Shown one piece after another: positions 3,001 through 59,967 of a stretch of DNA of 59,967 bases. Every line of letters starts with the position of its first letter. Within the stretch, counting starts at the first letter, position 1. Under the pieces are notes generated by a model. That model saw only the letters and a program-made list of their open reading frames with translations. It was not told the origin of the DNA and searched no databases. This DNA comes from an uncultured Myxococcales bacterium (lineage in GTDB: Bacteria; Myxococcota_A; UBA9042): assembly GCA_937910235.1 (NCBI GenBank), contig CALENB010000400.1, forward strand, positions 1 through 59,967, read 5' to 3'. The position numbers were made by a program, and so were the translations under genes.

Positions 3001-5249
3001 ATCGCTACAACGCTAGTGGGAACTACCTTGGCGCGATGTCGACGGGACAAAGCGAGATGATGGGCTTGGCCTGTGATGACCTCACGGACGACTACTACAC
3101 CGCGAACTGGGGTCAGCAGACCGTGACGCGTCGCGCTGGGACGTCCACCAAGTGGGCTCGGAACATCTACTACTACCCCGCTGGTGTTGCGTACGAGGGC
3201 AGCCTCGTCTATGCGATGAAGTACTACTACAACATCACGACGGTCTACCGGATGGATCGCGCGTCGGGCGCAGCGAAGGGTGACTTCAACCTGAGTGGCT
3301 GGGGCCAGTTCAGCTCAAGCAGCATCTACGCGCCCTACGACGGGCTGGAGGTCGTCGATGGCAAGCTGTGGCGCATTACTCAGAACCGCTACGCGGCGCG
3401 CTACAACCTGACCAATGGCAAGTTCGACGGTGTGTACTTCTACGTGACGCCTGGCAGCTCCTACGTCAATCACTCCTTCATCAAGGACGGTAAGTTGTGT
3501 GTGGGTAGCTACGGACGCAACGACATGTACTGCTACGAGCTGCCGGACTCGAACCTCGGCTCGCTGACACGCAACCTCAGTATGAACACCTACTCGTATG
3601 GCGGCGGCTACCACCCGAGATACAGCGAGTTCTGGTACAACAACTACAACAACTCAACGATTTATCGCTATGATAACAAGGGAAAAGCGCTGGGCAGCTT
3701 CAATGGTGGTCACACCAACGTGCGTCAGATCTCCGCGACGGGTACGGAAGATGCCTACTACATGGCGCGCTACGGCAGCAACTCAAGCACTTCGTACATC
3801 GTGAAGAACTCGGGCAAGACGGCGACGAAGGTGTGGCAGTACTCGCCGGCGACGTACCTGTCCGCGGTGTCGGTTGACGGCGCGACGGTCTATGCCCAGC
3901 GGTACTACTCGAGCGATCGGGTGGTCTACATGATGAAGGCCACGGATGGCCAGAATCTCGGTAACTTCAGCCTCGGCGGTGATATCGGCAGCTACAACTA
4001 CGGCGGCTTGTTGGTGACCCAGGGTAAACTGTACCGCGCGACGAGCGACGGGTGGGTTCGGCGCTACGACATGAAGTCAAAGGCTTACGATGGGTTGAAC
4101 CTCTACTACGGCAACTGGCACAGCATCTACAACCTGACGTTTGACGGTAACGAGATGTGTCTGTCGAGCGGAAGCTCAAGCGTCTTCTGCTATCAGTTGA
4201 CAGGCAAGGGCTCGTTGGTTGACGAGAACTGCGACCCAGACGGCGACGGTTACTGCGACGCCAACATCCTGACGATCGGCAAGCCCAAGGCGTGTCCGAA
4301 GGGCGGCGCGGACTGCGACGAGACCAGCAAGAGTATTAACCCATCAGGCACCGAGCTCTGTAACGGCAAGGACGAGAACTGCAACGGCGCCATCGACGAA
4401 GGCGCGGACACTTGGTGTGAGGACGGCAAGAACGCGCAGGCCAAGTGCGAGAGTGGGGCGTGCAAGATCTACGAGTGCAACACCAACTACGTTGACTTGA
4501 ACGGTCTCGGTTCTGACGGCTGCGAGTGCTTGGACACGGACGGCTTTGAGCCGAATGACACGTGTAGTCAGGCGGTTTCGGTGGACACCAACATGGATGA
4601 TAACGGCGTCATACGCTACGTGACCGCGCGCCTGGTGAGCAACACGGACCAGGACTGGTTCAGCTTCCGCGCCATTGACAGCACGGATTCGGGCACCGCG
4701 GTGTGTGACAGGTTCAACGTGCGTGTGCGCTTCGTTCAGAATCCAAGCAACTCGTTGCGCTTCGAGATCTACCGTGGCGGTTGCCCAGGCACGAAGTACC
4801 CGAAAGAGGCCCATAACCTAGGGGTGAAGGTCGATAACGCGGTGTGTTGTGGCCAGACCGACTTCAACTGGTTCACGAACTTCAAGGGGTACCAGAAGAA
4901 CGCGTACTCGTCGTACTACTCTGAGTGGGGCGAGTGTAACTGCACCACGTCCGGATCGACGTTTGACACGCGCACCGGCTACAACTACGGCCCCGGCTAC
5001 AACCCCTACGGTACGGGTAGCGGGGGACCGTGGCTGCGCTACAACGGAAGCTCTGGGGTGACGGATCGCAACGTCAAAAGTCAGTCGCGCGGCTACGACT
5101 ACTCGCGTTGCCACAACGACACGGCGTACTTCTACATCAAGGTGTACAAGGGTGCGACGGCGACGCAGTGCAGCAACTACCGCCTGGAGATCTCCAACGG
5201 GGTCTACGGTGCTCCCAGCAATGGGCGCAATGGCTACATGGTCAACTAG
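3..5249 (+). CDS. Giant Tyr-rich surface protein with propeller-like repeats and MopE-type metal-binding modules (5' truncated)
   Basis: The reading frame is open from base 3, so the true start lies before the window; at least 1,748 residues remain. Seen: one partial and five complete copies of a ~220-residue Tyr/Gly-rich unit, beginning near nt 445, 1105, 1771, 2920 and 3589. Each unit opens with a YGGGFH...EYW-like stretch and contains short YGGLAVIG...KLYR...RYD blades typical of PQQ/Kelch-like beta-propellers. Two Cys/Asp-rich blocks with DCDD...P...ExCDxxDNxC patterns, as in the putative metal-binding motif of MopE-like proteins, sit at about nt 2395-2885 and 4213-4540. The C-terminus (about nt 4546 on) starts EPNDTCSQA and has DQDWFSF, resembling a bacterial pre-peptidase C-terminal domain. 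Inferred role: secreted or cell-surface structural or adhesive protein. It ends at a strong hairpin and converges on gatB. Confidence 0.85.
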   Translation, partial: YNANKTIKWNYYHGYYMGGIACDTKNCFVMRHNNSTVWVLDRNTGGVERSYGLSGWAGSTLYGGLAVIGDSLIRGSSGNYIRTFNKFTGAARGISFRAAVPVYNMAFRNGQMCVSANNSSVYCYDMTDQTGKDTPLLYGDSSSVQISSYNHSHGMGYHPYYKEHWKPSWAGERVYRYDQNRNYVGQFDSGRTYMMDLTGETTNDDWYSANWQYYTIRKHDGMLRKTLWDRSIGYYAGAVATEGNYVYGIRHGSNYMYKLNKSNGSVVSSFGLTGGSYMSDTMYGGAAVIGTKLYRASSSGYVERYDLTTQKYDGLTLYMGTSHYGTSFQPDIREFCTYDSSDNGQCVTLPATVASGSAGVNTVAGIDTYSYGGGFHAGYSEYWYPEWNSANATQVYRYDQNAKYLGSFNSGLQYVRQIAGDKVHTDYYAGVYSGSSTYSRVYRLKAKTNTKVWTSPYATTYYGGMAIDANYVYTMRYDGDRHVYAFNRSNGAQRTDKEFDVVGDLNGGNCYGIAIYEGKLYRTSTSRFVYRYDMVTHEHDGVKFETTPTPDTVALNDKGELCVSVASSPAVVYCYPLKDVGTNWNATTYTVPTYGEGAGFHNYRAEFWFNNWSSGTTRIYRYNKNKVALGAFDVAQRYIRQTWGDIGTDHYYSANWSDSTIQRRAGMSPSVLWSRNIGGNPGGVAGDDTAVYAMRYNSQTVYQLNKLTGAITRQFNLTGSYSGSLYGGLAVSGGKLFRGNTSAWVYRYDLATGEHDNVKFTTAVGIYGAAFDGQNYCVHDSSSSNQKLYCYEIVTTNCTKGTDCDDTQASVNPGKTEICDDLDNNCSGTVDTGCDDDSDGYCDANMATYGTPTVCPKGGGDCNDASATESPASPELCDGKDNNCNKLIDEENATGCSTYFYDGDNDGVGLTASSKCLCKAQDLYKTTVSGDCNDTCSTCAPNKPEICDGQDNDCDAPLLDQPSLATTKLTFNSSNLYYGGCWHSKRNEYWFTYWSGAGMYRYNASGNYLGAMSTGQSEMMGLACDDLTDDYYTANWGQQTVTRRAGTSTKWARNIYYYPAGVAYEGSLVYAMKYYYNITTVYRMDRASGAAKGDFNLSGWGQFSSSSIYAPYDGLEVVDGKLWRITQNRYAARYNLTNGKFDGVYFYVTPGSSYVNHSFIKDGKLCVGSYGRNDMYCYELPDSNLGSLTRNLSMNTYSYGGGYHPRYSEFWYNNYNNSTIYRYDNKGKALGSFNGGHTNVRQISATGTEDAYYMARYGSNSSTSYIVKNSGKTATKVWQYSPATYLSAVSVDGATVYAQRYYSSDRVVYMMKATDGQNLGNFSLGGDIGSYNYGGLLVTQGKLYRATSDGWVRRYDMKSKAYDGLNLYYGNWHSIYNLTFDGNEMCLSSGSSSVFCYQLTGKGSLVDENCDPDGDGYCDANILTIGKPKACPKGGADCDETSKSINPSGTELCNGKDENCNGAIDEGADTWCEDGKNAQAKCESGACKIYECNTNYVDLNGLGSDGCECLDTDGFEPNDTCSQAVSVDTNMDDNGVIRYVTARLVSNTDQDWFSFRAIDSTDSGTAVCDRFNVRVRFVQNPSNSLRFEIYRGGCPGTKYPKEAHNLGVKVDNAVCCGQTDFNWFTNFKGYQKNAYSSYYSEWGECNCTTSGSTFDTRTGYNYGPGYNPYGTGSGGPWLRYNGSSGVTDRNVKSQSRGYDYSRCHNDTAYFYIKVYKGATATQCSNYRLEISNGVYGAPSNGRNGYMVN

Positions 5250-48415: not shown

Positions 48416-50230
48416 CTACTTGTGCCGCGGCTTCGTCTTGCTAGGCCTCTTGCCGGGCTTCTTGCCGGGCTTCTTGCCGGGCTTCTTGCCGGGCTTCTTG
48501 CCGCGGCTCCCCGCTTCGTGTCCTCGCTGGGCCCGCGCCGGTGACGCCTCCGCGGCAGTCGTCGCCGCGGCGACCGGCGCGCGCGAACGTGGCCGCCGCC
48601 CCTGCGCTTCGTCCAGCAGCTGCATGAGCCACGCCGACCACGCAGCCACCTCAACCCCCGTCCCGGTGTGCACGGCTCGCACGATCCCCAGGTCGTCGAT
48701 CGCCACGACCGTCGGGATCCCCCGAATCGGCAGCTTCGCCAGCGGCTCCGGACCGACCCACGCGACCGCCGGCGCGCCCTCCAGCTCGGCGTCCACGTAG
48801 TCCTGTAAGGCGAGCTCGTCGCGATCGACGGACGTCGGAACGACCACCAACCCGCGTGCGCCGAGCCGGGCGTGGAGCTCCGACATCATCGGCGACACGC
48901 GCTTGCACGGTCCGCACCATGTCGCCCAGAAGTAGACCAACAGCACCTTGCCCTTCAGGGTCCCACCGAGCGGCCGCTGGCCGCCGAGCCACTTCTGCAC
49001 CGCGATGTCCGGCAGCGGCTGACCGACAAGGCTGTGCTGAAATGCAGCGGCCGGCAGCGTCGGCGCCGCGTCGCCCTGCGTCGCCACCGGTCGCTTCGTC
49101 GCCACCGTCACGTCCACCGTCTCCCCAGCCTTACAACGCACCGTGATCGTCTCGGGCAGGGTGGCGGCGTAGAAGAGATCATGCCCCGCGCCCGCCAAGC
49201 TCGATTGCAGGCCGTTCACGATCCAACGCCCCGCTGGCAAGCGCAAAACCCCGCCGCCGCTCGCGTTCATCCGCACCGTCGGGGTCGGTCTGGCGTCGCC
49301 CTGCGCGTCCGTCATGCGCAACGTTAGCCGATAATCAGCCGCCGCCGAGCCGTCTACCTGCGCCTGCAATCGCAGCGTGCACGGCCCCGCGGGCCACTTG
49401 ATACGGTAGGATTGAGGCGCCGCCCGTGGCCGCACGTACTGCGCCGTGGCTGGATCGGCGGCCACCCACTCAGCGGCGGCGACGGGCGCCAGCGGTAGAT
49501 TCGAGTCCGCCACGATCAGCTTGCCTTGCGCCGGCCAGGGCTTCAGGTCCAGTCGCCAGTCGCCAATCTGTACCGTCGCGCCGCCGCGCCCCCACGCCAC
49601 CGCGCCAAGTCCGCGTTGGGCTGACGCCGCCGACAGCTTCTGTCCCGCCGAGACCAACGCCCACTGATACGTCAGCAGATCACCTTGCGCACCGCCACGC
49701 GGAAACATCACGCCGAGGCTCCAGCGCCCGCTCGTCGCGATCAGCGCCAATCCGGGCTCCACCACGAGGACTCTGCGGGCGCGTTTCGGGAACAGGAGGC
49801 TCAAATCCGCCCTGCGAACCTGCAAGATCAACGGTTTCAGTGCGCCATCGCGCTGAACGCGCAGCGCGGCGGAGCCCCCAACGGGGCCGCGCACCATGCC
49901 AGCGACCTTGGACACCGGCGCGCCAGGCTGCACGTCAGCGCCGTCGACCGACAACACGACGTCGCCAGGTTTCACCCCCGCCTGCGCTGCCGGTCCGCCG
50001 GGCACGACGCGAGCGACCACGACGCGTCCACCGCGGCCGTCGAGGACCATGCCCACACCCCCAACGCGGGGCGCGATCTTTGATGTGCTCGGCGCGGCCC
50101 CGATCAGCGGAGACCTGCCGGGTGCGCGCGGTGCCGCCGTCGCTGTCGTGACCACCACCGCGGCAAGAAACGCGCAGATGGCGAGCCCCACGATCGTCGA
50201 CTTCAGCTTTTCCATCGGTATACCTGTCAC
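48416..50230 (-). CDS. PDZ-thioredoxin fusion with Lys/Gly/Pro repeat tail
   Basis: 604 residues from GTG 50230 with GAGGAG just upstream. Signal peptide to about residue 32 (LKSTIVGLAICAFLAAVVVTTATA). PDZ-like domain at about 55-135 (VVVARVVPGGPAAQAGVKPGDVVLSVDG). A beta-rich middle (carbohydrate-binding-like strands) leads to a TlpA/ResA-type thioredoxin domain with LLVYFWATWCGPCKRVSP near residue 440 and IRGIPTVVAIDD. The tail is a perfect GKKP repeat ending in basic residues. Periplasmic redox protein; partner unknown. Convergent with the gltX-linked gene. Confidence 0.85.
   Translation of the reverse strand: MTGIPMEKLKSTIVGLAICAFLAAVVVTTATAAPRAPGRSPLIGAAPSTSKIAPRVGGVGMVLDGRGGRVVVARVVPGGPAAQAGVKPGDVVLSVDGADVQPGAPVSKVAGMVRGPVGGSAALRVQRDGALKPLILQVRRADLSLLFPKRARRVLVVEPGLALIATSGRWSLGVMFPRGGAQGDLLTYQWALVSAGQKLSAASAQRGLGAVAWGRGGATVQIGDWRLDLKPWPAQGKLIVADSNLPLAPVAAAEWVAADPATAQYVRPRAAPQSYRIKWPAGPCTLRLQAQVDGSAAADYRLTLRMTDAQGDARPTPTVRMNASGGGVLRLPAGRWIVNGLQSSLAGAGHDLFYAATLPETITVRCKAGETVDVTVATKRPVATQGDAAPTLPAAAFQHSLVGQPLPDIAVQKWLGGQRPLGGTLKGKVLLVYFWATWCGPCKRVSPMMSELHARLGARGLVVVPTSVDRDELALQDYVDAELEGAPAVAWVGPEPLAKLPIRGIPTVVAIDDLGIVRAVHTGTGVEVAAWSAWLMQLLDEAQGRRPRSRAPVAAATTAAEASPARAQRGHEAGSRGKKPGKKPGKKPGKKPGKRPSKTKPRHK
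48455..48502 (-). repeat. 12-bp in-frame tandem repeat (GKKP units)
   Basis: Four perfect 12-bp units (GGGCTTCTTGCC on the plus strand) plus a degenerate copy at 48443-48454 encode GKKP repeats at the C-terminus of the thioredoxin fusion. Slippage keeps frame. Confidence 0.85.
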
Positions 50231-52777: not shown

Positions 52778-53440
52778 ATGTTCCACACGATTGCAGAGTT
52801 CTTCGAAGAGGGCGGATGGGGCATGTGGCCTATCCTTGGGCACCTCATCTTCATCCTCGCGATCATGTTCGAGCGGATCTTTGTGCTGTACATCCGCTCC
52901 AGCGTGAAAAAAGAGGAATTCATCAAGCTTTTGCAGGTGCCGATCTTGAAGGGCGACCTCAACCGCGTCCTGAAGGTCTGCTCGACCTACCAGTACCCGC
53001 TCGCGCGCATCGTCCACTCGGGCGTGCTCAAAGTGAAGCGCTCGGACGAGGAGGTTCAGGCCGCCATGGACGAGGCTTACCTGCGTGAGATGCCGCACAT
53101 CAAGAAGCGCGTCGACTACCTCAACCTTCTCGGTAACACGGCGACCCTCGCTGGCCTCCTCGGCACCATCACCGGTCTGATCGGCACCTTCGGCGCCATC
53201 GGTCGTCCGGACGTGGATCCGTCGCAGCGCTCGACACTTCTGGCTCAGGGTATCTCCGAAGCCATGAACTGCACGGCGTTCGGTCTGGCCACAGGTATCA
53301 TCGGCGTTCTGTCGTTCGCGATCCTCTCGTCGAAGGCCACGGCCATCGAGTCGGATATCAACGAAGGCACCGTGCGCGTTCTCAACTTGATCGTCGCCAA
53401 TCGAAACAAGATGGGCGACATCAAGGAAGACGCAGCTTAA
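52778..53440 (+). CDS. MotA/TolQ/ExbB-type proton channel
   Basis: 220 residues. TM1 near 19-38 (MWPILGHLIFILAIMFERIF), then a cytoplasmic loop, TM2 (YLNLLGNTATLAGLLGTITGLIGTF) and TM3 (AFGLATGIIGVLSFAIL) with the GTITGLIGTFGAIG signature. Three-TM stator subunit that uses the proton gradient, working with ExbD partners encoded next. ATG 52778 follows AGGGAG. Related complexes energise TonB transport, Tol-Pal or, in myxobacteria, gliding motors; which applies here is unknown. Confidence 0.93.
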   Translation: MFHTIAEFFEEGGWGMWPILGHLIFILAIMFERIFVLYIRSSVKKEEFIKLLQVPILKGDLNRVLKVCSTYQYPLARIVHSGVLKVKRSDEEVQAAMDEAYLREMPHIKKRVDYLNLLGNTATLAGLLGTITGLIGTFGAIGRPDVDPSQRSTLLAQGISEAMNCTAFGLATGIIGVLSFAILSSKATAIESDINEGTVRVLNLIVANRNKMGDIKEDAA

Positions 53441-53572
53441 TCAAGCTGCCCGAGTTCTCAGAGCGTGTTTGGGTGGTGCTGTAGCCCCGCCAAATCAAGC
53501 TCGGAAGAGCGCAATGGACCAAGGCTGGTCGTCACGACGACCGCCACACCTGCCGACGACAACTCTGTGAGG

Positions 53573-53610
53573 TCGGGGGCTGAGTAGCAAGACCGTTACT
53601 CAGTCCCCGA
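53573..53610 (+). other. 14-bp hairpin between exbB and exbD
   Basis: Arms 53573-53586 and 53597-53610 pair over 14 bp (one G-U) with a 10-nt loop; no T tract. It ends 30 nt before the exbD ATG. Could tune the ExbB:ExbD ratio by RNA processing or attenuation. Confidence 0.55.
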
Positions 53611-53640
53611 TCCGCAGCGTCAGGCAACCAGGAGACCGCG

Positions 53641-54246
53641 ATGGCCGGTGGAGCTAGTGGTAAGGGCGGCGTAGCTGACGCTTCGTTGAACGTCGTCCCC
53701 TTTATTGACCTCCTCATCTGTCTCATCTGCTTCCTCGTCATCTCCGCGGCATGGACCAGCCTGTCGCGAATCGATGTGGACCAGGCATTGCCGAAGGCGA
53801 GCAAGACGCCGCCGAAGGACAAGCCTGAGAAGAAGGCAGCGATCAACCTCGCCATCACGCCCACGGGCTACCTGGCGAACTTGCACGACGCCGAGAACGC
53901 CGATCTGGCGCAGCCCAAACGCATCCCAACGATTGGCGAGACCAAGATTTGTCGCGGCAAAGTCGGCAAAGACGGGGCCTGCCCCGGTGGTTTCGACACG
54001 TTCAAGAAGTACGACAAGATCAAGCTCAAAGAGACGCTGGCCGGCTTCATGAAAGAAGGAAAGCTGGGCGACAAGATCAAGATCATGGTCGCCGCGCACG
54101 ATAAGGTTCAGTACTTGCACCTCATCGGCACGCTCGACGTCGTGTTGCACTCCTGTGAAGACGAGGCCGGCAAGACCTGCCTCCGCAATCCCAGCGTCGG
54201 CGACATTAACTTGTTGCGCGCTAAGGGTTTCACGACCTTCGAGTAG
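53641..54246 (+). CDS. ExbD/TolR-like protein 1 (long, with Cys insertion)
   Basis: 201 residues. One TM near 18-38 (VVPFIDLLICLICFLVIS) with the proton-carrying Asp (FID). The periplasmic part is longer than usual ExbD (~140) and holds CRGKVGKDGACPGG and SCEDEAGKTC, likely two disulfides. ATG 53641 follows AGGAG. Partner of the ExbB-like channel. Confidence 0.88.
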   Translation: MAGGASGKGGVADASLNVVPFIDLLICLICFLVISAAWTSLSRIDVDQALPKASKTPPKDKPEKKAAINLAITPTGYLANLHDAENADLAQPKRIPTIGETKICRGKVGKDGACPGGFDTFKKYDKIKLKETLAGFMKEGKLGDKIKIMVAAHDKVQYLHLIGTLDVVLHSCEDEAGKTCLRNPSVGDINLLRAKGFTTFE

Positions 54247-54344
54247 CTGTTTCTCGCGGCTCGCGCCGCCGTCGGGGGCTACCGCGCTCGGCTCCTTCCC
54301 TCCGGGCACACCTTCGCTCACCGAGAGCGACACAGGACGCACAG

Positions 54345-54920
54345 ATGGCCATTCATAATCCAGGATCGCGCGCCGGCTCCGGCATCGCGCTCAAGAGCGT
54401 CGCCAAGCACGTGATGAGCGGCGGCGGCAAGGGCATCTTCGCGACGCTCAACGTTGTGCCGATGATCGACATGTTCATCATCCTCGTGGTGTTCCTGGTC
54501 ATGCAGTTCAGCTCCTCCGGTGAGCTCATGCTGATGAACCCGAACATCACGATGCCAAAGGCCAGCGCCTCAAAAGAGCTTGAGCGCGCGCCGATGATCG
54601 CGCTGACGCGTGGTGAAGGCGGCAAGCCCGGCACGATGCTGTTTGAGGGCAACATGGTCCTGAGCCTCGCCGACGTGAACGAAGTGAAGTACCCGTCCTG
54701 GGACATCAAGCCGCTCGCCGAGACGCTGAAGAAGGCGTGGAAGCTGCAGCAGCGCAACTCCGACGCGAAGATCCGGAAGAATCGCAAGATCATCATCCAG
54801 GCTGACCGCTCCGTACCGTTCGGGGTCATCAAGATGGTCATGGCTACCTGCGGTCGCAACGAGTACCGCGAGCCCAACTTCGCGATCATGGTCGGTACGG
54901 ACGACGCACCGGCCAAGTGA
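54345..54920 (+). CDS. ExbD/TolR-like protein 2
   Basis: 191 residues. TM near 42-62 (NVVPMIDMFIILVVFLVMQF) with its Asp. Longer than typical ExbD; a basic insertion (RNSDAKIRKNRKIIIQADRSV) precedes the usual ADRSVPFGVIKMVM end, which is the conserved C-terminal ExbD pattern. Two different ExbD-like proteins next to one ExbB is the pattern of TolQRA-like or AglRQS-like systems. Confidence 0.9.
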   Translation: MAIHNPGSRAGSGIALKSVAKHVMSGGGKGIFATLNVVPMIDMFIILVVFLVMQFSSSGELMLMNPNITMPKASASKELERAPMIALTRGEGGKPGTMLFEGNMVLSLADVNEVKYPSWDIKPLAETLKKAWKLQQRNSDAKIRKNRKIIIQADRSVPFGVIKMVMATCGRNEYREPNFAIMVGTDDAPAK

Positions 54921-54929
54921 TTCGTACAC

Positions 54930-54998
54930 GCCGAGTCATCTCGGCATGAGTCGAACTGGCGGCGTGTGCTCATTCGGGCACACGCCGCTTCGTTTTCC
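54930..54998 (+). terminator. Tandem hairpins with intrinsic terminator
   Basis: A small hairpin (54930-54935 with 54940-54945) precedes the main one: arms 54959-54969 and 54978-54988, 11 bp perfect, 8-nt loop, then TTCGTTTT. The cluster may therefore be split into exbB-exbD-exbD and a second transcript from 55058. Confidence 0.85.
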
Positions 54999-55003
54999 GC
55001 GGC

Positions 55004-55032
55004 TTGACAAGCGTCGGGCTGTCCGCTGGGAT
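55004..55032 (+). promoter_or_regulatory. Candidate promoter for the nuclease-like gene
   Basis: Perfect TTGACA (55004-55009), 17-nt spacer, TGGGAT (55027-55032), a weak -10. It starts 6 nt after the terminator tail. Confidence 0.35.
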
Positions 55033-55057
55033 CCCGACGTTCAGAGAGGGAGGCGCC

Positions 55058-56104
55058 ATGAGCCGTTCGCGCACAAAAGTCGCCGTGTCAGCGTTGCTGC
55101 TCGCGCTCGTCGTGAGCGCCGTTGGCCTCGCGCGCGACGCTGTGGCGACGCCAGCGAGCAAGGTCTACCTCAACGGCGTGCCCTATCCGGTCTACTTTAA
55201 CGATGGGGACAGCTTCCGCGTCCTCGGCGGACCGCTCAAGGGCACCAAGGCACGGCTCGCCGGGTTCAATACGCTCGAGAGTTACGGCAAGACCCACTCG
55301 TGGGGCGGCTGGGACCCGAAGGAGCTGTACCACAACGCAAAAATGGGCACGTACAACGCCCGCCGTGGTCCATGTTGGGATGACGCCTCGGAACGCTACC
55401 GACGCGGGTGCAGCCAAGCCTGGCATTGCACGTCGGACATGAAACGTGACGGCTACGGTCGGATTCTTTGGTGGTGTCCCGATCTGGCCGAAGACCAGAT
55501 TCGCAAGGGGCTCGCACACGTCATGAGCGTCAAGGGTCCCGGTATCCCGATGCTCGTGGCGGCCCAGGCGGAGGCCATCAAGAACCGCCGCGGGATGTGG
55601 TCGCACGGCGTGCCGCGCTACGTGGTCACATCGCTCCACGCAGCCGACGAGCCCTGGTTCGGTGGATTTCCGTACAACCGCATGGTGTCCAGCGTCACTG
55701 GCGCGTCGCGAAAGTGGAAACACCGCAAGATCTACAGCGAGTGCGACAACGTCTGCTGGTGGGAGGTGGTGTTGACCCCCGCGGCCCACGCCATGGGAAT
55801 CAAGGCCCTCCGCGCTGATCCCACGCTGGCCGGCTTCATCAAAGCCTACGACGACGACCGCTTGCGCGCGCTGCTCAACTCCTACCGGCTCAACGGGGAC
55901 CTGGGCCTCGTGAGGAACCACAGGAACAAGGGCGTCTTCGACTTGGTGACGACCCGCAAACACCTGGTGGCCTTCGACCAGGCGCTCTCCGCCTTGGTGC
56001 AGGGCGGGGGACTGACGATCCTGAGCAAGGAGCTGGGCTCCTGTATGGTTCACGCCGCATTCAATCGCCGCTACGGCTCGGGGTCCGCGTCTTGTCTGCA
56101 CTAA
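55058..56104 (+). CDS. Exported staphylococcal-nuclease-like protein
   Basis: 348 residues from ATG 55058 (GGGAGG site); signal peptide to about residue 31 (ALLLALVVSAVGLARDAVA). SNase-like fold: NDGDSFRVL, ARLAGFNTLESYG, KRDGYGRILWW and AEAIKNRRGMWSHGV. Compared with staphylococcal nuclease, the catalytic Arg35, Glu43 and Arg87 positions are kept but Asp40 is Asn. A Cys-rich insertion (CWDDASERYRRGCSQAWHC) and a ~150-residue C-terminal extension with CDNVCWW are additional. Could be an active DNase/RNase or a binding protein. 20 nt before the Cys/Asp-repeat lipoprotein. Confidence 0.82.
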   Translation: MSRSRTKVAVSALLLALVVSAVGLARDAVATPASKVYLNGVPYPVYFNDGDSFRVLGGPLKGTKARLAGFNTLESYGKTHSWGGWDPKELYHNAKMGTYNARRGPCWDDASERYRRGCSQAWHCTSDMKRDGYGRILWWCPDLAEDQIRKGLAHVMSVKGPGIPMLVAAQAEAIKNRRGMWSHGVPRYVVTSLHAADEPWFGGFPYNRMVSSVTGASRKWKHRKIYSECDNVCWWEVVLTPAAHAMGIKALRADPTLAGFIKAYDDDRLRALLNSYRLNGDLGLVRNHRNKGVFDLVTTRKHLVAFDQALSALVQGGGLTILSKELGSCMVHAAFNRRYGSGSASCLH

Positions 56105-56124
56105 AGCGTCACGAAGGAGTCGGC

Positions 56125-57741
56125 ATGTTCCCGAAGTCGTCACAACGTCGACGCGCGCCATGGCTGTGGCTGCTGCTTGCGGCCGTGTCCACGGTGGTTG
56201 GGGCCTGGGGCTGCAACGTCGGACCCTTTGAGTTCACGCGTCCAACGTCGGCGCCGTATGGCTACGAGACCAGCGATCAGAGCTGCAACGACGGCCTCGA
56301 TAACGACCAAGATGGTCTGACCGACTGCGACGATCCGGACTGCATCTACGAGACCGGCCACTGCGGTGAGATCATCCCGGCGATCCCCTACTGGCAGCCT
56401 GAGAACTCGTACAACCTGTGCATCGATCAGGTCGACAACGACGACGACGGGCAGTTCGACTGCGGCGATCGCAAGTGCCAGTCCATCCCCGAGGTCTGCT
56501 GCAGCCGCGAGTTTACGAACGAGCAGTGCAAGGACGGTGTCGACAACGACGCCAACGGGTACACGGACTGTGAGGACTTCGGCTGTCGCAACGGCATCTT
56601 CGTGACGGTCTGCGTCGAGAACACCGACGTGCTGTGTGACAACAAGAAGGATGATGACGGCGACGGCTACACCGACTGCCTCGATGCCAACTGCGCCAAA
56701 GCGACGGCCTGCGGCGGATCCGGTCTGGGCGGCGCTGCGCCGCCGCAAAAAGGCGTGGACGGCCCAGAAACCAGCCTAGAAGCGTGCTCGGACGGGTACG
56801 ACAACGACGGCAACACCTACGTCGATTGCGCCGATTTTTCGTGCACCAAGTCTGCAGATCCGGCCGCGGTTGCCTACTGCGCGGACTCCAAAGAGGACAC
56901 CGCGGCCAAGTGCACGGACGGCAAGGACAACGACGGCAACGGGTTCACCGACTGCGGCGACTTCTCGTGCAGCAAGTCTTCTGACGCAGAGGTGCTCAAG
57001 GCCTGCGCCGACGCCGCCGAAGATACGCTCGAGAAGTGCAAAGATGGCAAAGACAACGACAGCAACGGCTACACGGACTGCAACGACAACGTCTGCAGCC
57101 AGTCGGAGAACGTCGTGATCCGCAACTACTGCGAGTCGATCGGCGAGAACACGCTCGACAAGTGCAAGGATGGCATCGACAACGACCACAACGGCTACAC
57201 GGACTGCAACGACAACGCGTGCGCGAAGTCGGCCAACTTCATCATCGTGAGTCACTGCGCCTCGTTGCAAGAGAGCAGTGACGTGGAGTGCACCGACGGC
57301 AAGGACGGCGATGGCGATGGGTTCGCGGACTGCGCGGACTTCTCCTGCCAGGGATCGCTGGAGCCTTACACCAAGGACGACAAGACTGGCGACGCGTTCA
57401 AGACCGTCGCGGAGTACTGCAAGTCCCTCGCCGAAGACACCTGGGTCAAGTGCAAGGACGGCAAGGACAACGACGGCAACGGCTACGAGGACTGCTCGGA
57501 CCGGTCATGTCGCGGCGCGGACGCCTGGGATCCAGCCTCGACGGTGCCCCCGATCCATCTGGACCGCCATCCGTGCCAGGAGAGCTTCAGGCCGGGCGAT
57601 GATCCGAAGGAGCTCAACGCGGTCTGTAGCGATGGAGTCGACAACGACGAGGACGGCTTTACCGACTGCGACGACTGGGACTGCGCTTGGAATCCGAAAG
57701 TGACGGTCTGCGACGGCAAGAAGCTGAAGGTCTGCCAGTGA
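56125..57741 (+). CDS. Lipoprotein with eleven Cys/Asp metal-binding repeats
   Basis: 538 residues from ATG 56125 (AGGAG). Signal ends AWGC, a plausible lipobox. Eleven copies of a ~20-residue motif C-x-D-x-x-D-N-D-x-x-G-x-x-x-C-x-D-x-x-C run through the protein at about 30-60-residue spacing. The DNDxDG core is a calcium-type loop and the four Cys may make disulfides or bind metal. MopE-like proteins carry similar patterns. The same motif occurs in the next gene. Likely surface-exposed metal-binding scaffold (inference). Confidence 0.85.
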   Translation: MFPKSSQRRRAPWLWLLLAAVSTVVGAWGCNVGPFEFTRPTSAPYGYETSDQSCNDGLDNDQDGLTDCDDPDCIYETGHCGEIIPAIPYWQPENSYNLCIDQVDNDDDGQFDCGDRKCQSIPEVCCSREFTNEQCKDGVDNDANGYTDCEDFGCRNGIFVTVCVENTDVLCDNKKDDDGDGYTDCLDANCAKATACGGSGLGGAAPPQKGVDGPETSLEACSDGYDNDGNTYVDCADFSCTKSADPAAVAYCADSKEDTAAKCTDGKDNDGNGFTDCGDFSCSKSSDAEVLKACADAAEDTLEKCKDGKDNDSNGYTDCNDNVCSQSENVVIRNYCESIGENTLDKCKDGIDNDHNGYTDCNDNACAKSANFIIVSHCASLQESSDVECTDGKDGDGDGFADCADFSCQGSLEPYTKDDKTGDAFKTVAEYCKSLAEDTWVKCKDGKDNDGNGYEDCSDRSCRGADAWDPASTVPPIHLDRHPCQESFRPGDDPKELNAVCSDGVDNDEDGFTDCDDWDCAWNPKVTVCDGKKLKVCQ

Positions 57742-57861
57742 TCGTCACTGGGCCATAGGGGTTGGCCGCGTGCGCGACTGGGTGCCAGCCGCCTCGTGGG
57801 CGGCGCTGATCGAGCCGACATTGTGAGGAACCGACATCCTGGTCACGACTAGGGATGGGAG

Positions 57862-59709
57862 ATGAAGATGAACCGTTTGACGGCCCTGGGTGCCTTGGTT
57901 CTGCTGCTACCGACTGTGGGCCTCGCCGCTCCGCCGCCCCCTGAGGCGGCACCGGTCGCGCCCGCGGCAAAGGCGGATGCAGCGAAGCCGGACGTAGCGA
58001 AGGCGCCCGCGGCGAAGACGGCCAAGGCCGATCCGGCGGCCGCGAAGCCAGTCGCGGACGATCCGAAGGCTGCTCCGGTCGCCCCAGCTGCCGCGCCGCC
58101 TGCGCCTGCTGCGAAGCCCGCACCGGCTGCAGCCGCTGGGGCGCCAGCGCCGACCGGCGCGAAGGACGGCGCCGCGCCGACCGTGAAGGCCGGGTTGCCG
58201 GACGCGACCCCAGCCGTGGGCGCGCAGGGCACCGAGCGCAAGTGCGCGGACCGCCGCGACAACGACAACGATACGATGATCGATTGCGCCGACGCTGACT
58301 GCTACAAGACGCACGCGTCGTGCAGGGCGGGCAAGGGCCAAGAGAACAGCAACGCCAGGTGCAGCGACTGGATCGACAACGACGGCAATGGCGCCGTGGA
58401 TTGTGACGATTCAGCTTGCGACGGGCCCGGAATTACGGTCTGTAAGGGCTCCTGGAAGGGCAGCCTGGACACTGGCGGCGGCGCCGGCAATGGCGCAGGG
58501 CCCGAGGACGACGTCCCTGAGCTTGGCAAAGGGATGGCCGTCGAGGATCTGATCGGCAAGGGCAGCGACAAGGACGGCGAGCGCAATGACCAGCTCTGCT
58601 CCGATGGCATCGACAACGACAAGGACGGCCGCACAGACTGCGCGGACTTTGGTTGCCGTTTCGATCCGAGCGTGACGGTGTGCCGAGGCAACGCCGGCAT
58701 GCGGTTTTCGGTCGTGGCTGGCATCGCGCAAGACTACAACATCAAGAACTACCGCGACGGCGACGGGACCTTGGATACGCGCTTTTCGCGCATCCAGCTG
58801 CGCTCATTCGGCCCGATGCCGCTCATCCAGAACAGCTTCTACCTGCTGAGTCTGCGGGCTGAGAAGACGCCGCGGTTGACGTTTGCGATGTTCCAGATGC
58901 CGATCGGGAGCCAGGGCCACTACGTCAACGTCAACAGCGGCGGCGGCGGCCTGTCGAGCGCGCTGATCGTCTCCGCAGCCAAGCAGCTGCTCTTGGAGCC
59001 GGCGTACTACGTGTACAACGCTTTCGAGCAGGGCAATGGCGCGTCGGCTGAGGTGGGTGGACCGATCGGCAGCAGCGGCAAGCTCAAGTTTCGCGTCTTC
59101 GCCGCGGGAGGTTCGGGTCGCTTCTCCGGCAACGTTGGCGGTCGCTACTTCAGCTACAACAACCGCAACTACACGTACGCGTTGGGCGCGCAGCTGGCCG
59201 TGAACGTCATCGGCCACTACAGCCGCTTCGACAGCCCATTCCTGTACACGCCGGTGCCGCTGACCCTGGCGATGTGGGCGGGCGCGAAATACGACCAGCG
59301 CGCGCAGGAGCGTTACCCGGCCGTGAACGTGGCGGCCGTGTTTCGTTGGAATCGCTTCGTGCTGCTCACGGAGAGCTACACCAAGAAGGAGCTTGAGTTC
59401 GACTCGCTGCAGACGGCCTACGTGGCGCAGATTGGCTTCCTGGCGATTCCGAAGCGGCTGCTGATCGCCGCGGACTTTGGCGCGTACGTGATCTTGCAGC
59501 AGATGAAGAATCCGCCGGCGACGTTGGAGACCGACATCAAGAAGCAGCTCGACGAGCAGCAGTTTCGCGTCGCGGCGCACTTCTTCTTCTACCGCAACAT
59601 CGGGATCCTCTCGCTGCTCTACAAGGACCGCCAGGTTCAGAACGCGAAAGCGGAGCTGCCGGCGAATCGAGAGCAGGGCGTGAGCCTTGAGGCCCAGTAT
59701 CGCTTCTAG
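57862..59709 (+). CDS. Outer-membrane barrel protein with three Cys/Asp repeats
   Basis: 615 residues. Signal peptide MKMNRLTALGALVLLLPTVGLA; a ~110-residue Ala/Pro/Lys linker; three Cys/Asp repeats of the type in the upstream lipoprotein at about residues 128, 156 and 255; then a ~320-residue barrel-like region with alternating strands ending in VSLEAQYRF, a terminal Phe typical of outer-membrane porins. May dock the upstream lipoprotein or form its channel. ATG 57862 (in-frame ATG at 57868 nearby) follows GGGAG. Confidence 0.85.
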   Translation: MKMNRLTALGALVLLLPTVGLAAPPPPEAAPVAPAAKADAAKPDVAKAPAAKTAKADPAAAKPVADDPKAAPVAPAAAPPAPAAKPAPAAAAGAPAPTGAKDGAAPTVKAGLPDATPAVGAQGTERKCADRRDNDNDTMIDCADADCYKTHASCRAGKGQENSNARCSDWIDNDGNGAVDCDDSACDGPGITVCKGSWKGSLDTGGGAGNGAGPEDDVPELGKGMAVEDLIGKGSDKDGERNDQLCSDGIDNDKDGRTDCADFGCRFDPSVTVCRGNAGMRFSVVAGIAQDYNIKNYRDGDGTLDTRFSRIQLRSFGPMPLIQNSFYLLSLRAEKTPRLTFAMFQMPIGSQGHYVNVNSGGGGLSSALIVSAAKQLLLEPAYYVYNAFEQGNGASAEVGGPIGSSGKLKFRVFAAGGSGRFSGNVGGRYFSYNNRNYTYALGAQLAVNVIGHYSRFDSPFLYTPVPLTLAMWAGAKYDQRAQERYPAVNVAAVFRWNRFVLLTESYTKKELEFDSLQTAYVAQIGFLAIPKRLLIAADFGAYVILQQMKNPPATLETDIKKQLDEQQFRVAAHFFFYRNIGILSLLYKDRQVQNAKAELPANREQGVSLEAQYRF

Positions 59710-59967
59710 ACGTCGCGCCGCCCGTAGCCGTCCAATCGGCAGGCCGAACGACCGGTGCCCAGAAATCTGCCCGGAGTTTGGCCTTTTTTCGACACGCACC
59801 CGACGATCTCCTTGCGCCCCAGCGTTGTACTAGGGGGGCAACCGCGACCTCCTAGCGGGGGCAGCGTTGGAGTTAGGACGAGGCCGATGGTGGGGGTTCG
59901 CTGCGCCGGTCGCCTGGGCCGGTTGCGCGGTGTTGCCTGGGCTCGTTCATCCGCTCCTCGCGCCGGT
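59710..59967. other. 258-nt downstream region with possible terminator
   Basis: A run of six T at 59784-59789 follows GGCC, after GC-rich weakly pairing sequence; a terminator is possible but the stem is poor. The rest shows no gene start or RNA feature. Confidence 0.35.

Follow-up and report, generated by a model that had tools for sequence, protein, structure and literature searches.

The gliding motor of Myxococcus xanthus, of the Agl/Glt kind (AglRQS together with GltG), combines one ExbB-type with two ExbD-type subunits (PMC3169522), and its pairing of AglR with GltG serves as the model for the analogy between motor and transducer used below (PMC3169522, PMC5349195). A comEC gene close to exb-type motor genes is found in Pseudomonas, where comA (the gene of the ComEC protein) and exbB of P. 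stutzeri both serve natural transformation (PMC7660920, PMC10234333), inactivation of exbB lowers transformation (PMC10234333), and PA2984 and PA2983 of P. aeruginosa have neighbouring locus numbers (PMC7660920, PMC10234333). Among calcium-binding proteins, the C-rich domain of teneurin-4 is known to bind three Ca2+ (PMC9058538). Furthermore, other bacteria are known to exploit extracellular DNA by means of secreted nucleases, Dns/Xds of V. cholerae and ExeM of Shewanella being exported enzymes that act on such DNA.

The stretch of DNA analysed here (the window, 59,967 nucleotides) belongs to an uncultured myxobacterium represented by a draft assembly of 593 contigs. All six open reading frames claimed in the preliminary description are present on the + strand at the positions given there. 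The cluster does not end at 59709, as had been supposed, since a comEC gene, which encodes a DNA-import channel, begins within the final ~100 bases of the window. The features are the following:

52778..53440, + strand: ExbB/TolQ/AglR-type proton-channel subunit, 220 aa (PF01618, 1.6e-23)
53641..54246, + strand: ExbD/TolR-type subunit 1, 201 aa, VVPFID motif (PF02472, 3e-12)
54345..54920, + strand: ExbD/TolR-type subunit 2, 191 aa, VVPMID motif (PF02472, 2e-14)
54958..54998, + strand: intrinsic-terminator-like hairpin in the exbD2/SNase gap (sequence scan, RNA fold)
55058..56104, + strand: exported SNase-fold nuclease, 348 aa, with signal peptide and additional C-terminal domain (PF00565, AF2/Foldseek)
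56125..57741, + strand: lipoprotein with 11 acidic double-disulfide repeats (NF033662 x11, lipobox Cys)
57862..59709, + strand: outer-membrane protein with signal peptide, Ala/Pro/Lys-rich stretch, 3 repeats, predicted 16-strand barrel and YRF end (NF033662 x3, alignment, AF2/Foldseek)
59742..59789, + strand: intrinsic-terminator-like hairpin with T6, 3′ of the barrel gene (sequence, RNA fold)
59867..59967, + strand: 5′ end of comEC, starting at TTG or close by, truncated where the contig ends (RGRWWGFAAPVAWA alignment, synteny of relatives)

The ExbB-ExbD-ExbD genes are referred to below as the triad, and the genes for SNase, repeat lipoprotein and barrel as the trio. The Agl/Glt subunit set, with one AglR-like and two ExbD-like proteins (AglQ/AglS), is present in one cluster, and the window ExbB clade resembles the Agl/Glt system also in standing beside GltG-like transducers in sister families, whereas no glt genes occur at the window locus and the GltG-like proteins of the genome are encoded on other contigs and score below the equivalog cut-off. 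Closeness of comEC to motor genes is shared with P. stutzeri comA-exbB and P. aeruginosa PA2984-PA2983, but the window differs from them by its pair of exbD genes, the Agl-like character of its exbB and the nuclease-repeat-porin operon that lies between motor and comEC. The window nuclease, exported like Dns/Xds and ExeM, is of another nuclease family than these, and we know of no system of that type with a linked repeat lipoprotein and repeat-bearing porin. No paper describing the gene set of motor, SNase, repeat protein and barrel was found in the open-access literature, most subscription journals being outside the scope of the search; the conserved nuclease-repeat-porin operon is real and apparently undescribed. 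A reading of the six genes as a defence system was ruled out, as the anti-phage models of PADLOC-DB (Zorya and others) gave 0 matches for all six proteins, and so was a plasmid-borne origin, the barrel having no match in plasmids.

Nuclease, calcium-type repeats and barrel

A nucleic-acid-processing component had been suspected in the cluster, and the intact catalytic residues and the fold of the SNase protein speak in its favour. Equivalents of the catalytic Arg35/Glu43/Arg87 and of Asp21 are invariant in 35 sequences from many families, the canonical Asp40 equivalent is Asn in all orthologues, and the Pfam match is marginal (PF00565, 21.4 bits against a cut-off of 21). The AF2 model (pLDDT 87, pTM 0.84) is predicted to adopt the SNase OB fold, its best nine Foldseek matches (E below 0.001) being SNase-type structures, including staphylococcal nuclease. 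The protein is a putative Ca2+-dependent nuclease.

The Cys/Asp repeat corresponds to the acidic double-disulfide repeat of NCBIfam (NF033662, acid_disulf_rpt), which was found in 11 copies in the lipoprotein (5e-86, 281.9 bits) and in 3 copies in the barrel protein (1e-22, 79.1 bits), both far above the cut-off of 41 bits and in exactly the numbers counted in the preliminary description. A lipobox-type signal with Cys is present in the window lipoprotein and nearly all its orthologues, which hold about 7-12 repeats, while the barrel has exactly three, on the N-terminal side, in all 25 members. The repeat had also been proposed to tie the last two genes together; they do share it, but the tie is weaker than assumed because the repeat is common in the window genome, where 18 of the 32 matches to NF033662 are located in seven or so other large ORFs, and this weakens any claim that the shared repeat proves partnership. 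The repeat-bearing large ORFs of the genome (C232, C321, C225, C414, C442, C285) are open frames of 697-2191 aa. In two of the other loci, L010 (7584-8408, -; 5 repeats) and, at the matching position, L014, the gene of a further repeat protein lies upstream of the trio in divergent orientation.

Sequence searches with the repeat reach the crystal structure of the teneurin-4 C-rich domain (7plp). The spacing of the first three cysteines is the same, and each of the 14 window repeats keeps 7-9 of the 9 side-chain Ca2+ ligands of that domain, whereas the repeats described here are bacterial and organized in tandem, with 3 units in the barrel protein and about 7-12 in the lipoprotein and its orthologues. 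This likeness suggests that the repeats bind Ca2+. Those of the barrel protein were modelled poorly by AF2.

For the barrel itself, AF2 predicted 16 strands and no plug at medium confidence (pLDDT 71), and the C-terminus has a YRF-type end (alignment A1). The best Foldseek matches (E 6e-11) were nearly all porins, including OprP/OprO for phosphate and Omp32 for anions, and their TM-scores, taken over the query, were about 0.4-0.48; in Pfam, none of the 25 barrel members matched a porin family, and one weak match to OMP_b-brl was obtained. The similarity to 16-strand porins (OprP/OprO, Omp32, DcaP) concerns the fold, the strand number and the C-terminal Phe, while the identity is about 10% and the window barrel additionally has the Ala/Pro/Lys stretch and the three calcium-type repeats. 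The model thus predicts a 16-strand porin without plug. In known porins, both the N- and the C-terminus of a 16-strand barrel are periplasmic, so the repeats of the barrel protein should lie in the periplasm as well. The anatomy of TonB-dependent transporters, with 22 strands and an N-terminal plug, was not found in the barrel, nor was any Pfam match to such transporters, and TonB-dependent metal uptake is ruled out on these grounds; metal uptake in general, one of the roles first considered, received no positive support from a porin fold without TonB plug.

Gene order within and outside the family

Relatives were drawn from a species-level genome collection and represent f1 (the window's own family of uncultured myxobacteria), as well as the class and the phylum of the window genome. 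The order exbB-exbD-exbD-SNase-repeat-barrel on one strand was found in 18/18 other f1 genomes with a spanning contig, the cluster being interrupted by contig ends in the remaining three. The neighbourhood search proposed in the preliminary description therefore finds the six-gene order kept outside its own genome. As a control, the upstream flanks were inspected as well: gmk, gltX, the gene of a 382-aa protein, a thiolase gene and a TPR protein gene are kept in most of the same f1 loci, about as well conserved as the cluster itself, and the linkage within f1 is therefore partly ordinary family synteny. A fusion protein of PDZ and TlpA/ResA-like thioredoxin-fold parts, encoded in the window at 48416-50230 (-), is kept less widely than its neighbours in f1.

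Outside f1, the barrel is present in 8/30 genomes of the class, in scattered families, and in 8 genomes of a phylum sample of 141 outside the class. The repeat lipoprotein precedes it in every fetched case and the SNase in every case with room, giving 17 trio loci in other families and classes, with about 40-60% identity and otherwise unrelated surroundings. The trio is inherited as a block across Myxococcota. No window-type ExbB-ExbD-ExbD triad adjoins the trio in any of these 17 loci, and co-occurrence of the trio and the motor clade outside f1 was not detected (3 genomes with both, 5 with the trio only, 12 with the motor only and 10 with neither; Fisher p=0.68). Since each occurs without the other there, the three-gene block is the evolutionary unit. 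The earlier proposal of one obligate machine built from all six products is at odds with the 17 loci of the trio without motor, with triads of sister families that lack the trio and adjoin a GltG-like transducer, and with the missing co-occurrence; six-gene synteny as proof of one machine is likewise weakened by the background synteny in f1 and the absent co-occurrence elsewhere. In one locus of an unrelated family (L195, about 3137-5100, trio oriented +), a distant ExbB (32% identity) and a single ExbD are encoded upstream of the trio at a distance of ~2-3 kb, with an intervening pyruvate-kinase-like gene, and this could be either chance or a second motor association.

A terminator had been reported to split the cluster. 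The hairpin between exbD2 and the SNase gene is real in the window (about 54958-54989, 14 pairs with G-U, T-rich tail), but in its strong form it is confined to this genome, as no comparable hairpin was found in this gap in 16 of the 19 relatives scanned, and weaker ones in 3, which rules out a conserved terminator between motor and trio. Another strong hairpin of the window (59742-59789) precedes the comEC start. Because terminator-like hairpins separate them, the motor, the trio and comEC are probably expressed as three transcripts in the window genome. In one genus, the exbD2-SNase gap shrinks to about 35-47 bp, and one transcript is possible in the genus with short gaps. The gap between exbB and exbD1 (53441-53640 in the window) is unusually long in all f1 relatives measured (135-599 bp), and two tandem exbB paralogues were found upstream of exbD in L158 and L159 (G049).

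The motor and the comEC neighbour

Across f1, the orthologues of the window ExbB share 83-99% identity with it, compared to 59-74% for gltX at the same loci. The proton-binding motifs of the ExbD proteins, VVPFID in subunit 1 and VVPMID in subunit 2, are invariant in 26 sequences, and so are the Thr/Glu positions of ExbB. In the ExbB tree, the window ExbB groups with triads of sister families (97/93 support), and this clade is sister to Agl-type motors, a separate group of triads located beside GltG/GltC-like genes; the four other ExbB proteins of the genome lie apart from the window ExbB, though on long branches. A GltG-like protein with an AgmX/PglI TonB-like C-terminal domain is encoded beside or near nearly every examined triad of the window clade and of the Agl type. 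The gliding-type motor considered in the preliminary description gains support from both the tree and these sister-family neighbours. No GltG-like gene was found near the f1 cluster. The window genome has two close GltG-like homologues on other contigs, C35 (4e-101) and C553 (3e-71), whose genes (L178:4431-6182, L179:2416-4191) have no motor genes adjoining and whose products reach 120-144 bits, below the cut-off of 650 for the GltG equivalog NF033760. The triad is a working-looking Agl-like motor and, by analogy with AglR and GltG, probably has a GltG-like transducer as its natural partner.

Scores for the TolQ and ExbB equivalogs stayed below their cut-offs (56.5 bits against 221 and 31.9 against 206), and such an equivalog with linked tolA/tonB was not found at the locus. 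A housekeeping TolQR role was ruled out, given that other ExbB paralogues of the genome are located in separate Tol-Pal-like and TonB-ExbBD-like clusters and that the ExbB tree, despite its long branches, separates them.

Directly 3′ of the barrel gene and on the same strand, a comEC/Rec2 gene was found in 19/19 f1 loci with room. In the window, only the first ~33 codons are present (59867-59967), and RGRWWGFAAPVAWA aligns with the N-terminus of ComEC from relatives at a score reached by 0/1000 shuffles; full-length genes are available from relatives of the same genus (L056:13532-16012, L057:11571-14051). Three f1 relatives tested exceed the ComEC cut-off of TIGR00361 (198-220 bits against 190), and the zinc motif HAHPDH/HGHPDH of the nuclease-like domain is intact in five sequences checked. 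The gap between the barrel gene and comEC ranges from 37 to 1181 bp in f1 (median 123) and from 37 to 76 bp in one genus. In other families, no comEC was found near the trio within the DNA examined.

A candidate entry module for nucleic acids

In regard to function, we propose, with a probability of about 0.45, that the trio forms an outer-membrane module for the cutting and entry of nucleic acids, which in f1 feeds ComEC. According to this proposal, the Ca2+-loaded repeats would become rigid and hold the lipoprotein, the barrel and the nuclease together at the outer membrane, where, or just beneath which, the Ca2+-dependent nuclease would trim bound DNA or RNA, and the barrel would admit the cleavage products into the periplasm. 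In f1, where the module is set between an Agl/Glt-type motor and comEC, longer periplasmic DNA may proceed through ComEC, either as food or for transformation. The motor would most likely act via a GltG-like transducer encoded elsewhere in the genome, while driving of the porin directly by the motor is possible; its action on the trio complex is the weakest step of the mechanism. Wherever a locus has room, within f1 or beyond it, the three genes of the trio occur together, and because comEC adjoins the trio in f1, the reading that involves DNA is the best one to pursue. Several results count against the module: adjacency of the trio to comEC and to the motor is limited to f1, a family with high background synteny, so that a single ancestral placement could explain both links; hairpins part motor, trio and comEC in the window genome; and the barrel model is of medium confidence, the SNase Pfam score is marginal and Asp40 is changed to Asn.

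Of the alternatives, the one that survives best, although we regard it as unlikely, is nutrient scavenging only. Nucleotides or phosphate from nucleic acid in the environment or in prey would be released and taken in by means of the nuclease and the porin, and the motor and comEC would be unrelated to them, their position being kept by family synteny. The 17 other trio loci with neither motor nor comEC adjoining would be expected in that case, and so would a porin fold that works without energy and counts OprP/OprO and Omp32 among its matches, the about equally conserved gmk-gltX-thiolase-TPR flanks in f1, and terminators parting the units in the window genome. However, the conserved position of comEC next to a nuclease operon, on the same strand, is unlikely to be due to chance, and the gaps of 37-76 bp in one genus resemble a single transcript.

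Considerably more doubtful is one energised trans-envelope machine of six or seven products, with the triad driving DNA through the repeat lipoprotein and the barrel. The full order in all 18 f1 relatives with spanning contigs, comEC in all 19 loci, the exbD2-SNase gap of about 35-47 bp in one genus and the effect of exbB on transformation in P. stutzeri, as cited by PMC10234333, are all consistent with such a machine, but the trio occurs elsewhere without the motor, the motor clade is found elsewhere with a GltG-like partner of its own and without the trio, there is no co-occurrence of the two outside f1, and the barrel is without a plug like that of TonB-dependent transporters. Least probable of all is that the triad is an Agl/Glt-like motor for gliding or envelope transport and that the trio forms a complex for adhesion or envelope integrity with a structural SNase domain, since, despite the sister position of the ExbB clade to Agl-type motors, the GltG-like transducers in the genome and the calcium repeats typical of adhesion proteins (such as teneurin), the SNase catalytic residues are invariant, which would not be expected if the domain were only structural, the barrel resembles porins and no GltG-like gene is located near the trio.

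A more far-reaching reading is a DNA-import apparatus in which an Agl-type proton motor, and not a type IV pilus/secretin, powers entry via a repeat-scaffolded porin barrel. We consider this apparatus improbable; if it is real, a dedicated SNase trims the DNA, ComEC carries it over the inner membrane, and calcium-loaded repeats scaffold the barrel. Little is understood of how DNA or nucleotides pass the outer membrane other than by the type IV pilus/secretin route, and large amounts of nucleic acid have to be digested by predatory or saprophytic myxobacteria. The conserved nuclease-repeat-porin operon offers a defined three-gene set for such study and would place teneurin-like calcium modules in a bacterial outer-membrane complex, and because it adjoins comEC and a gliding-type motor in one family, motor-driven DNA entry becomes a testable question.
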